Notes under the pieces: generated by a model | Told to the model about the DNA's origin: nothing | The model's database searches: none | What the model saw: the letters and a program-made list of their open reading frames with translations, nothing else | Position numbers and translations under genes: made by a program | Assembly (NCBI RefSeq): GCF_002148795.1 | Contig: NZ_MPOB01000002.1 | Coordinates: forward strand, 186,001 to 250,000 | Direction: 5' to 3' | Length of the DNA: 64,000 nt | Source: Oceanibaculum nanhaiense | GTDB lineage: Bacteria > Pseudomonadota > Alphaproteobacteria > Oceanibaculales > Oceanibaculaceae | Part shown: positions 14,593-19,336 of the stretch, in pieces | How positions within the stretch are numbered: the first letter of the stretch is position 1 | Layout of the letters: each line of letters opens with the position of its first letter

Positions 14593-14989
14593 GGCTCCAA
14601 GGCTCTTGCGTCCCGTTGCTGTAACCGTACCCATCATGCGCGAATTCTATTGCGTTGGCGATAGGGGGGCGTTGGCGACGGGGCGGCGATCGGCTGCCCC
14701 CGATTGTTACAAGGCATCGGGAAAAATTTCATATTTTTGCTTTCAATAAAAAATCCTGCGAAAAAATTACCGGAAAAAGGCATTGAATCAGATAGTTGGT
14801 GATTAATTTCGCTGAGCGTTCGAACAGTCGGCGGCAGATCTGCCGGTTCCCGGCTAAGTATCGGGCCTTACAGGGAAAATTCGGGCTTGCGTGGGGGCAT
14901 GGTTGGGCATATATGACCCCCCAGAGCGTATTCGCACGTACCAATGGCCCACCGTGGTTAAGTAACGACGTAACGCGTCTCTTTTGGCT

Positions 14990-15322
14990 CATCTGGCGGC
15001 TTTGCCGCTCTGGTCCGAAGGGGTCCTGTTATGATTGCGTCCTGTACCACCGGGGGCTGAGACACCCCCCTGAAAAACGAACCTTGAGCGGTCCCACAGG
15101 CCTCCCGCGGAGGGAAGCCGCTGAACCCGCCAAGCACGTCTCACTTCATAGGCTTTCGATAACGCTGCCGTCTCTTGTCTGAGGCGGGAGCGGGCGAGCT
15201 TTCGTCGTGACCTGTCCCGCTTGCGGGCAGGCCAGCGGGCTGTTGCACCTTTCCGGTGTGCCGGTTCCGCGCGTGTTTTTGGTGTGTCCAGCTGGGCGCA
15301 ATTGCTTTTGGGAGTTGGTGCG
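14990..15322 (+). ncRNA. Structured 5' leader of the ornithine-decarboxylase operon (speF-leader candidate)
   Basis: About 690 bp separate 14638 and 15323. The first part (14700-14800) is AT-rich and could hold the promoter. From 14990 on there are several hairpins: GGCGGC/GCCGC (14995-15008), GGGGG/CCCCC (15052-15069), CCTCC/GGAGG (15101-15113) nested in AGCGG/CCGCT (15086-15122), and CCCGC/GCGGG (15216-15228). Alphaproteobacterial ornithine decarboxylase genes are known to carry a conserved leader (speF motif, Rfam RF00518), which makes this the leading explanation; I cannot confirm it by covariance search. The segment also has, in order, several THI-box-like words (see findings). Confidence 0.45.
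15031..15060 (+). CDS. Possible 9-residue leader peptide
   Basis: ATG at 15031 with AAGGGG 7 nt upstream (15018-15023) opens MIASCTTGG and stops at TGA 15058-15060. The stop codon lies inside the loop of the GGGGG/CCCCC hairpin (15052-15069). This arrangement would allow ribosome occupancy to control folding of the leader, but such short frames arise by chance, so the call is tentative. Confidence 0.3.
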   Translation: MIASCTTGG

Positions 15323-16597
15323 ATGTTCCTTGGTTTCGAAGCGAACCGCGAAATTGCCGGCCTCACGGTCGATGACGTCATTGCCGCCGCCCGCCCGGAA
15401 GAGCCGGTGCTGTGCCTGCGTCCGGGCCTGATGGAGGAGACCGCGCGCACCTTCGTGTCGCTGTTTCCGGGCCGCGTCTTCTATGCCGTGAAGTGCAATC
15501 CCGATGTCCAGGTGCTGGCCGCGCTGGCCGCCGGTGGCGTTGCCAATTTCGACGTCGCCTCGCTGACCGAGATCGAGACGGTGCGCCGGCTGCTGCCGGA
15601 CGCGCGCCTCGCCTACATGCATCCGGTGAAGCCGCGCGCCTCGATCCGGGCCGCCTATGCCCAGCACGGCGTGCGCGACTTCTCGCTGGATTCGGTGGAA
15701 GAGCTGGCGAAGATCGTGACCGAAACCGGCCATGCCGAGGATCTGGGCCTGTTCGTGCGCCTGCAGCTGCCGAAGGGCAGCGCGGTCTATGACCTGTCCG
15801 GCAAGTTCGGTGCCCCGGTGGAGCAGGCGGTCACGCTGCTGCGCGCCGCCCGCGATGCCGGCCAGCGCGTCGGCCTGTGCTTCCATGTCGGTTCCCAGTG
15901 CCTGGACCCGTCGGCCTATGAGCGCGCCATCGAGATCGCCGGCGAGGTCATCCGCCTGTCCGGCGTGACGCCCGACGTGCTGGATGTTGGCGGCGGTTTC
16001 CCGGTTGCCTATCCGGACGTCGCCCCGCCGGCGCTGTGGCTCTACATGGCGTCGATCAACCGGGCGTTCCGCCGGCTGAATCTCGCGAACTGCGAGCTGT
16101 GGTGCGAGCCGGGCCGTGCGCTGGTTGCCGCCGGCACCTCGCTGGTCGTGCAGGTGCAGCATCGCCGCGGGCAGGAGCTGTTCATCAATGACGGCGTGTA
16201 CGGCACGCTGTCCGATGCCGGCGTGCCGGCCTTCCGCTTCCCGGTGCGGCTGATCCGCGCCGGTGCTGAAGTTGCGTCGACCGAGACGCTGCCCTACGCC
16301 TTCTTCGGCCCGACCTGCGACAGCGCCGACCGAATGGAAGGCCCGTTCTGGCTGCCCGCTGACATGCGCGAGGGCGACTGGATCGAGATCGGCCAGCTGG
16401 GCGCCTACGGTGCCTGCCTGCGCACCCAGTTCAACGGCTTCGACCGGATCGGCCGGGCGGATGTCACCGACGCGCCGCTGCTGGCGACCGCCGGTCATCC
16501 GAATATGGGCCGGGTTGCACCGGGGCAGGTTCAGGCCGCGCCGCGTGTGGCGTCCCGGCCGGCGCGCCGGCGGGCGAAGCTGCGCGCCGTCGCTTGA
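15323..16597 (+). CDS. Ornithine/lysine/diaminopimelate-type decarboxylase, fold III (paralogue 1)
   Basis: 424 aa PLP enzyme of the alanine-racemase-fold decarboxylases. FYAVKCNPD holds the PLP lysine (Lys57); also VLDVGGGFPVAY (phosphate-binding glycines), CEPGRALVA and GPTCDSADRM with the catalytic Cys-Asp pair contributed across the dimer. It differs from the canonical enzyme encoded at 18203 by a longer N-terminus and an Arg-rich tail of about 40 residues (ARRRAKLRAVA). Substrate is probably ornithine, but lysine or a related amino acid is possible. First gene of the polyamine operon, 86 bp ahead of homospermidine synthase. Confidence 0.88.
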   Translation: MFLGFEANREIAGLTVDDVIAAARPEEPVLCLRPGLMEETARTFVSLFPGRVFYAVKCNPDVQVLAALAAGGVANFDVASLTEIETVRRLLPDARLAYMHPVKPRASIRAAYAQHGVRDFSLDSVEELAKIVTETGHAEDLGLFVRLQLPKGSAVYDLSGKFGAPVEQAVTLLRAARDAGQRVGLCFHVGSQCLDPSAYERAIEIAGEVIRLSGVTPDVLDVGGGFPVAYPDVAPPALWLYMASINRAFRRLNLANCELWCEPGRALVAAGTSLVVQVQHRRGQELFINDGVYGTLSDAGVPAFRFPVRLIRAGAEVASTETLPYAFFGPTCDSADRMEGPFWLPADMREGDWIEIGQLGAYGACLRTQFNGFDRIGRADVTDAPLLATAGHPNMGRVAPGQVQAAPRVASRPARRRAKLRAVA

Positions 16598-16683: not shown

Positions 16684-18114
16684 ATGACGGATTATAAGCG
16701 CCATACCGCCTTCGGCGGACGCATCGTGATGATCGGCTTCGGCAGCATTGGCCAGGGCGTGCTGCCGCTGATCCTGCGGCATATCGACATGCCGAAGGAC
16801 AAGCTTGTCATCATCACCGCCGAAGAGAAGGGCAAGGACGTTGCCGAGGCGTATGGCGTGGAGTTCCGGGTCGCCCCGGTGACGCGCGAGAATTACCGCG
16901 ATCTGGTGGGCAAGGAGATCGGCAAGGGCGATTTCCTGCTGAACCTGTCGGTCGATGTGTCCTCGATCGCGCTGGCCGAGCTGGCGCGCGACAAGGGTGC
17001 GCTCTATCTCGACACCTGCATCGAGCCCTGGGTCGGCGGTTATACCGATACTTCGCTGCCGCCCTCGCTGCGCTCGAACTACGCGCTGCGCGAGGAATTC
17101 CTGGCGAAGCGCCGGCCGGGCCAGAAGGATCCGACGGCGGTCATCACCCATGGCGCCAATCCGGGGCTGGTGTCGCATTTCGTGAAGCAGGCGCTGCTGA
17201 ACATCGCCAAGGACACCGGCGTGAAGGCCGATGTGCCGGCCGACCGCGCCGGCTGGGGCAATCTCGCCAAGAGCATCGGCGTGAAGGTCATGCACATTGC
17301 CGAGCGCGACACCCAGGTCTCGAACAACCCGAAGAAAGTGGGCGAGTTCGTGAATACCTGGTCGATCGACGGCTTCGTCTCGGAAGGCTGCCAGCCGACC
17401 GAGCTGGGCTGGGGCACGCATGAGAAGCATTGGCCGTTCAACGCCAGCCGCCACGCTTTTGGCTGCGATGCGGCGATCTTCCTGAACCGTCCGGGGGCCA
17501 GCACCCGCGTGCGCACCTGGACGCCGACCGAAGGCCATTTCCACGGCTTCCTGATCACCCATAGCGAGGCGATCTCGATTGCCGACTATTTCACGGTGAC
17601 CGAGGACACCGGTTCGGCCAGCGCCGTGACCTACCGGCCGACCGTGCATTACGCCTACCACCCGTGCGACGACGCGGTCATGTCGGTGCACGAGCTGGCG
17701 GGCAAGAACTGGGTACAGCAGAAGAGCCAGCGGCTGATGGTTGACGAGGTCGTCAGCGGCATCGACGAGCTTGGCGTGCTGCTGGCCGGCCACAAGAAGA
17801 ATGCCTACTGGTACGGCTCGCAGCTCTCCATCGAAGAAGCGCGCAAGCTGTGCCCGCACAACAACGCCACCTCGCTGCAGGTCACCGTCGCCGTTCTCGG
17901 CGGCATGGTCTGGGCGATGGAGAACCCGGAACAGGGCATCGTCGAACCCGACGAGATGGATTTCCAGCGGGTTCTGGAAGTCTGCATGCCCTATCTCGGC
18001 CCGGTTGTCGGGGTCTATAGCGATTGGACCCCGCTGCAGGGCCGTGGCGAATTGTTCGCGGAAGATATCGACCGTGACGATCCGTGGCAGTTCAAGAATG
18101 TGCTGGTCGTCTGA
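16684..18114 (+). CDS. hss: Homospermidine synthase
   Basis: 476 aa, the usual length for bacterial HSS. It makes sym-homospermidine from two putrescines (or putrescine and spermidine) with NAD. N-terminal Rossmann motif IVMIGFGSIGQGVLPL; conserved segments YLDTCIEPWVGGYTD, THGANPGLVSHFVKQAL and TEGHFHGFLITHSE match the saccharopine-dehydrogenase-like family. Lying between two decarboxylase genes, it would receive putrescine directly from their activity. GGAG at about 16670 serves the ATG. Confidence 0.95.
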   Translation: MTDYKRHTAFGGRIVMIGFGSIGQGVLPLILRHIDMPKDKLVIITAEEKGKDVAEAYGVEFRVAPVTRENYRDLVGKEIGKGDFLLNLSVDVSSIALAELARDKGALYLDTCIEPWVGGYTDTSLPPSLRSNYALREEFLAKRRPGQKDPTAVITHGANPGLVSHFVKQALLNIAKDTGVKADVPADRAGWGNLAKSIGVKVMHIAERDTQVSNNPKKVGEFVNTWSIDGFVSEGCQPTELGWGTHEKHWPFNASRHAFGCDAAIFLNRPGASTRVRTWTPTEGHFHGFLITHSEAISIADYFTVTEDTGSASAVTYRPTVHYAYHPCDDAVMSVHELAGKNWVQQKSQRLMVDEVVSGIDELGVLLAGHKKNAYWYGSQLSIEEARKLCPHNNATSLQVTVAVLGGMVWAMENPEQGIVEPDEMDFQRVLEVCMPYLGPVVGVYSDWTPLQGRGELFAEDIDRDDPWQFKNVLVV

Positions 18115-18202: not shown

Positions 18203-19336
18203 ATGAACGAAAAGATTGCCCGCTTCCTCGCCGAGCGACGAGTCGAGACCCCGTTCCTGGTCGTCGATCTGGACGTCGTGGAGGAAAATTACCGCGCCCT
18301 GGCCTCGGCTCTGCCGAACGCCAAGATTTTCTATGCGGTAAAGGCCAATCCGGCGCCGGAGATTCTGAACCGGCTGACCGGGCTGGGGTCGAATTTCGAC
18401 ACGGCGAGCGTGGTGGAAATCGAGGACGCCCTGGCGGCGGGCGCCTCGCCGTCGCGCATCTCCTACGGCAACACCATCAAGAAGGAGACGGACATCGCGC
18501 GCGCCCATGCGCTGGGTGTCCGTCTCTTCGCCTTCGACAGCGAGGCGGAGCTGGAGAAGATTGCGCGCGCCGCACCGGGTGCCCGCGTGTTCTGCCGCAT
18601 CCTGACCTCGGGCGAGGGCGCCGACTGGCCGCTGTCGCGCAAGTTCGGCTGCGAGCCGGAAATGGCGTTCGACCTTCTCCTGAAGGCGGCGGAGAAGGGC
18701 GTCATCCCCTATGGCATCTCGTTCCATGTCGGCTCCCAGCAGCGCGATCCGCAGCAGTGGGACGCGGCCATCGCCAGCTGTGCCCAGCTGTTCCAGGATC
18801 TGGAGCATCGCGGCATCATGCTGCGCATGGTCAATCTCGGCGGCGGCTTCCCGACCCGCTACATGAAGGACATGCCGACCCCGGCCGATTACGGGCAGGC
18901 CATCGATGAGTCGCTGCGCCGCCATTTTGGCAACCGCATCCCGGAAACCATTGTCGAGCCGGGCCGCGGCATGGTCGGCAATGCCGGTGTCATCGAATCC
19001 GAGGTGGTGCTGATCTCGCGCAAGTCGGCGACCGACACGAAGCGCTGGGTCTATCTCGACATCGGCAAGTTCGGCGGCCTGGCCGAGACCATGGACGAGG
19101 CGATCAAGTACCCGCTGGGCTTCGACCGCGAGCTGACCGCCGAGGGCGAGTCCGTGGTGCTGGCCGGTCCGACCTGCGACAGCGCCGACGTGCTGTACGA
19201 GAAGGAGGAGTACAAGCTGCCGCTCGATCTCGCGATCGGCGACCGCATCCGCATCGGCTCCACCGGTGCCTACACCACCACCTACTCGGCGGTGGCCTTC
19301 AACGGCTTCAAGCCGCTGGCCTCCTACTACATCTGA
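18203..19336 (+). CDS. speF: Ornithine decarboxylase, fold III (paralogue 2)
   Basis: 377 aa, the compact canonical alphaproteobacterial form. PLP lysine in FYAVKANP (Lys47), VNLGGGFPTRY, VEPGRGMVGNAG, and the active-site GPTCDSADVLYE near the C-terminus; ends FKPLASYYI. Produces putrescine for the synthase just upstream (88-bp gap). Bifunctional lysine activity is known in this subgroup and cannot be excluded. The symbol speF follows alphaproteobacterial usage for this gene. A strong terminator follows. Confidence 0.92.
   Translation: MNEKIARFLAERRVETPFLVVDLDVVEENYRALASALPNAKIFYAVKANPAPEILNRLTGLGSNFDTASVVEIEDALAAGASPSRISYGNTIKKETDIARAHALGVRLFAFDSEAELEKIARAAPGARVFCRILTSGEGADWPLSRKFGCEPEMAFDLLLKAAEKGVIPYGISFHVGSQQRDPQQWDAAIASCAQLFQDLEHRGIMLRMVNLGGGFPTRYMKDMPTPADYGQAIDESLRRHFGNRIPETIVEPGRGMVGNAGVIESEVVLISRKSATDTKRWVYLDIGKFGGLAETMDEAIKYPLGFDRELTAEGESVVLAGPTCDSADVLYEKEEYKLPLDLAIGDRIRIGSTGAYTTTYSAVAFNGFKPLASYYI

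Follow-up and report, generated by a model that had tools for sequence, protein, structure and literature searches.

A class of divergent speF-like leaders with a predicted SD-masking stem and a short open reading frame upstream of alphaproteobacterial ornithine decarboxylase operons

What does the long leader of the polyamine operon of Oceanibaculum nanhaiense do, and does the nine-codon open reading frame (ORF) within it take part? The speF leader found upstream of alphaproteobacterial ornithine decarboxylase (ODC) genes was described in 2005 (Corbino et al. 2005, PMC1273637), and its regulation has been a poorly understood, long-standing puzzle ever since. A class of such leaders with an evidently translated ORF makes a ribosome-dependent mechanism testable. 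The leader studied here lies in a 64,000-nucleotide stretch of the genome (the window), for which a preliminary description had proposed a structured leader of the speF kind, a short frame with its own Shine–Dalgarno sequence (SD) and an attenuator-like layout. The features discussed below are listed in Table 1. The operon comprises two decarboxylase paralogues, about 34% identical, on either side of a gene that had no NCBIfam match and that we take, from its sequence and the gene order, to be homospermidine synthase-like. Orthologues of ODC1 are preceded by the same class of leader, as are relatives of the homospermidine synthase-like gene (59–69% identical), and in most other genera the leader is directly followed by orthologues of ODC2.

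Table 1. Features of the leader and operon, in window coordinates.
Feature	Position	Strand	Basis or remark
Probable promoter, TTGCGT (14887–14892), 17-nt spacer, TATATG (14910–14915)	14887–14915	+	Sequence; congener conservation
5' domain, ar45-like fold: closing helix GAG..CG with CG.CUC, CG/CG, UAC/GUA (14939–14941 with 14962–14964), UGGCC/GGUUA	14924–14980	+	Fold A, counted on 36 sequences
SD-masking stem P3, CUCUUUUGG (14979–14987) with CCGAAGGGG (15015–15023)	14979–15023	+	36-sequence helix count; predicted in window and congeners
SD of leader ORF, AAGGGG	15018–15023	+	Sequence; purine-rich SD in same position class-wide
Leader ORF, 9 codons, MIASCTTGG, stop TGA	15031–15060	+	Start, SD and stop kept in four congeners; start class-wide
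GGGGG/CCCCC hairpin, stop codon in loop	15052–15069	+	Same layout, unrelated sequences in L046, L135, L188/L191, L195, L198
Conserved 3' block, GAACCCGCCAAGCACGUCUCACUUCAUAG	15123–15151	+	Identical in four congeners despite indels breaking the frame to the ATG
ODC1, PLP-dependent decarboxylase, DapDC/ODC family, first gene of operon	15323–16597	+	Best NCBIfam match lysA, below its cut-off
Homospermidine synthase-like gene	16684–18114	+	Gene order and sequence
ODC2, canonical alphaproteobacterial ornithine decarboxylase type	18203–19336	+	Family search; orthologues

The hexamers of the probable promoter are largely kept and their spacing is kept in all four congeners; the pair was not listed by a strict sigma-70 scan. 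Transcription would start at about 14920. The conserved element starts near 14924–14933, 10–15 nt downstream of the promoter hexamers, and ends near 15151; the congener alignment shows that the 5' limit of 14990 given in the preliminary description was too short. The SD and nine-codon frame were present as described, with a spacer of 7 nt between the SD and the ATG (15031–15033), followed by the codons ATT GCG TCC TGT ACC ACC GGG GGC and the stop codon TGA (15058–15060). The stop codon does indeed lie within the hairpin loop, CUGAGACA (15057–15064), between the GGGGG (15052–15056) and CCCCC (15065–15069) strands. The leaders of three genomes of the genus are 82–91% identical, and the ATG, SD, nine codons, stop and hairpin are all kept, the peptides being MIASCTTGG, MNSSCTTGG and MNSSCTTGG. 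Another ORF, which overlaps the leader from an ATG at 14914 (MTPQSVFART...), was rejected because its frame is broken by a 1-nt gap in genome G002. The folding energy of the whole 381-nt leader was not much better than that of shuffled sequences (z = −1.69) and is thus no evidence by itself; it is conservation that carries the case.

A match to the Rfam speF model, RF00518, had been expected. Neither RF00518 nor RF02347 (ar45) matched at the gathering threshold in the window, nor did either match at E ≤ 5 between 14700 and 15500, and RF00518 had no match in the whole source genome. When 20 members of the class were scanned with Rfam, no cis-regulatory family reached threshold in the leader; one member had a sub-threshold match to ar45 (26.5 bits against a cut-off of 40). 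Homology was examined with covariance models of our own, R1, built from the window genus and one genome of another family, and R2, built from 36 class members. R2 found a homologous register in six of the eight canonical RF00518 loci, with individually weak matches (E = 0.012–0.5): the full model matched L025, L026, L027, L028 and L032, and only positions 40–120, its 3' part, matched L030, while L029 and L031 were not reported. The canonical loci and this class share the block order CGCACGTGCC, GCAACGACG, U-rich strand, purine-rich strand (GAAGAGG-like, pairing with the U-rich strand) and hairpin, and both have a competing 5' domain, as in ar45. The core of RF00518, a 5' conserved sequence near the transcription start followed by a long bulged stem-loop, is thus found block by block, and the leader stands upstream of a COG0019-type ornithine decarboxylase (ODC1 at 15323 in the window), as it does throughout the class.

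The stem itself has a different sequence in the two groups, which also differ directly behind it. Canonical RF00518 loci have no start codon behind the purine-rich strand, but ATC, TTC or similar, together with a corresponding stem and no conserved frame, whereas the window leader has an ATG there, preceded by an SD and opening a leader ORF. A leader ORF at the same place in the canonical leaders was considered and rejected, since frames and distances are not constant. By these comparisons, the window leader is homologous to the extended speF element, though divergent, and falls outside RF00518 as modelled; the structured leader of the speF kind is thus supported by our own models, but the assignment fails by the Rfam criterion. 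In the canonical loci L025–L032, the matches to RF02347 and RF00518 adjoin each other within each leader, which implies that Rfam holds two halves of one leader. The reported ar45/smrC45 small RNA may be an early-ended 5' part of the speF leader.

R1 matched in 38 of 385 sampled alphaproteobacterial genomes, and R2 in 61 of the 385, representing 42 genera, with a single match in the window's genome; RF00518 was found in 8 of 240 genomes (samples used here). An ODC-type gene was found downstream in 102 of the 108 loci examined, within the sequence stretch covered, and hss-odc operons are also preceded by the leader. By sequence, this is a variant class of speF-like leaders, not listed in Rfam, that stands before ODC or hss-odc genes. 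The preliminary description had regarded the peptide as an additional feature. In a scan with a pattern that stops short of the stem and takes no account of the ATG (80 named loci), SD and ATG were present in all 42 loci that keep the stem region and in none of the 38 loci of Acetobacteraceae type, in which the stem is lost. The start site belongs to the class as a whole; the ATG is absent from canonical RF00518 leaders. We found no report of a leader peptide for alphaproteobacterial ODC leaders in the open-licence literature. The Acetobacteraceae-type loci (L071, L073, L117 and 35 others) constitute a third leader variant, in which the 5' block is kept and the stem, SD and ATG are replaced by GTTCTGG and a block of GACCGTTTCG; none of the 42 loci with SD and ATG is of this type.

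The pairing of the class was counted in an alignment (A5) of 36 members, chosen for having SD and ATG. The P3 stem, 9–10 bp formed by the U-rich strand with the SD strand, was paired in 97.5% of cells over the 36 sequences, with mostly one-sided changes. The alternative 5' domain (fold A) was paired in 94.8% of cells, compared to 22–49% in slid controls. One of its helices changes from UGC/GCA in relatives to UAC/GUA in the window genus, with three sequences showing the intermediate UGC/GUA. Shuffle controls were inflated by related sequences, and we relied on the slid controls and the pair types. P3 and the 5' domain are partly exclusive, and the counts support two such folds that would share part of the same strands. 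The arrangement resembles SD-sequestering translational switches of riboswitch-like leaders, where a stem in competition with an upstream fold conceals the start site, with the difference that the ORF controlled here encodes a leader peptide in most genera and is that of ODC in the others. The stem masking the SD of the peptide, upstream of the GGGGG/CCCCC hairpin, would be a more evident switch than the hairpin itself. The possibility that P3 prevents termination at the U-tract of the 5' domain was rejected by reasoning, as the 3' strand of P3 is transcribed after the U-tract.

Such helices could also act by structure alone, the 5' domain, the SD stem and a pseudoknot between the hairpin loop and the 3' block binding a ligand or a protein, with the ATG kept for pairing and the short frame incidental. 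The conserved helices, some with changes on both sides, agree with such a pure RNA element, as does the retention of the 3' block in congeners where the frame has been lost. However, the A of the ATG is invariant even though a G-A mismatch leaves it without a partner in 12 of the 36 sequences, canonical RF00518 leaders manage a corresponding stem with ATC or TTC in its place, and SD and ATG are kept in Azospirillum-type leaders that have a different stem strand. These observations, and the reading frame evidence below, make a pure RNA element improbable.

Throughout the class, the ATG opens either a leader ORF of 8–59 codons or a frame that runs into ODC itself (Parvibaculum, Kiloniella and others): the 42 loci with ATG have 31 short and 11 long frames, most of the latter running into ODC. 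Many of the longer leader ORFs finish close to an SS[I/M] motif, in which AGTAT reads S-[I/M] and mostly follows a TCN Ser codon. All 25 occurrences of AGTAT, spread over 16 distances from the ATG, share its reading frame, which also argues against the pure RNA element. Two of them (L041/L042) are downstream of the stop, and the remaining 23 represent 15 distances; a random phase would give a chance of 1/3 per independent distance, distances within one lineage not being fully independent. In one group, GR[KE]NPLSS showed 54 synonymous and 14 nonsynonymous differences (dN/dS = 0.09, a value that somewhat overstates the constraint, the segment having been picked for its conservation). Over their whole length, other leader ORFs were free of such constraint, with dN/dS values close to 1: 0.95 (Reyranella-like set) and 0.79 (14-codon set). 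For the class, the sequences thus give good support to leader-ORF translation, while selection on residues is supported for the C-terminal motifs only. The nine-codon frame of the window is without the SS motif and offers too few codons and too little variation for a codon-level test.

In Gammaproteobacteria, SpeFL is a nascent arrest peptide, and leaders of the SpeFL/orf34 type sense ornithine or arginine while they are being translated. If the present peptides worked likewise, they would sense ornithine or a polyamine and stall the ribosome near their end, the stem being auxiliary. The conserved C-terminal SS[I/M] and GR[KE]NPLSS motifs in many relatives would fit, and so would the finding that the canonical RNA, tested by itself against six pathway metabolites, bound none of them (PMC1273637). 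We nevertheless consider arrest unlikely, given that the window peptide has nine codons and no conserved C-terminus, and that in several genera the frame continues into ODC, leaving no leader-peptide end at which arrest could occur.

The leaders of ODC1 orthologues mostly have ORFs of 9–16 codons, like that of the window, with the exception of L041/L042, with 33 codons, and of L194 and L197, where the start is apparently that of ODC1 itself. In six lineages with unrelated hairpin sequences (the window genus, L046, L135, L188/L191, L195 and L198), the strongest hairpin carries the stop codon in its loop; the layout differs in L060, L053, L011 and L064. By this comparison, the stop-in-loop arrangement is a recurrent layout. 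In the window, the loop UGAGAC (15058–15063) is complementary over six bases to GUCUCA (15138–15143) in the 3' block, making the pairing a candidate pseudoknot. The complementary stretch spans 6 bp in the window genus. L046 and L135 have counterparts of about 7 and 5 bp, respectively, at similar spacing; none was found in L060 or L188.

A stop codon in a hairpin loop is also what a classical transcription attenuator might display, with translation of the nine codons deciding whether the GGGGG/CCCCC hairpin or an intrinsic terminator upstream of ODC1 forms, and the five terminator-like sites, against 0.8 expected, would be in keeping with it. But the hairpin is followed by CUGAAAAA, not by U, and an intrinsic terminator ahead of ODC1 is improbable, as the U-run of the site at 15256–15281 is broken in G003; in G001 and G002, the region does not align. 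With no congener-conserved intrinsic terminator seen before the gene, classical attenuation is not supported, and we regard it as highly improbable; of the attenuator-like layout proposed initially, the stop in the loop stands and recurs in other lineages.

On the comparative evidence, then, the leaders are homologous, their start codon is conserved with an SD inside a conserved stem, the ORF is evidently translated in the class and the stop-in-loop layout is recurrent. The explanation that we find the most plausible, and hold with moderate confidence, is an RNA switch that gates translation of the leader ORF, which in turn gates the operon. The published search, negative for metabolites that bind the canonical RNA (PMC1273637), counts against this explanation, as do the dN/dS values near 1 of other leader ORFs. 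The leader, from about 14920 to 15322, would have at its core a switch that sets initiation at a single start codon. One fold would pair the U-rich strand with AAGGGG and hide the SD of the leader ORF; the other would take the 5' strand into the upstream ar45-like domain, freeing the SD. The folds would interconvert on a signal, presumably a metabolite of the polyamine pathway. In the window genus, termination on the nine-codon ORF would put the ribosome on the GGGGG/CCCCC hairpin. Since the same start is that of ODC itself in some genera, it is parsimonious to assume that ODC expression rises and falls with translation of the leader ORF. Translating the ORF would raise expression of the operon, the likeliest routes being exclusion of Rho from the 260 untranslated nt that follow, or a rearrangement of the 3' block.

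There is a parallel in Salmonella: translation of the unrelated orf34, also a short ORF located close to where an ODC transcript begins, prevents Rho termination and opens up the leader structure (PMC6386406). Rho blocking with leader unfolding is the model that we tentatively favour here. The gammaproteobacterial orf34/SpeFL has 34 codons, including Arg codons, compared to nine codons in the window. We know of no RNA element shared between orf34/SpeFL and the window class. More tentatively, and with some doubt, the leaders may constitute an undescribed, widespread class in which a single start codon with a masked SD serves for a leader peptide or for ODC, the stop of the shortest peptides lies in a loop that also pairs with a conserved block downstream, and termination on the leader ORF is the sensing step.

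Genome G228 has both a canonical RF00518 leader (contig C74, L027) and a leader of the new class (contig C51, L048), at different ODC loci. Homospermidine synthase genes at L242, L244, L249, L251, L257 and L258 have a class leader with 14-codon ORFs that share residues (roughly M.GH..AP.PR.(D/E)R).
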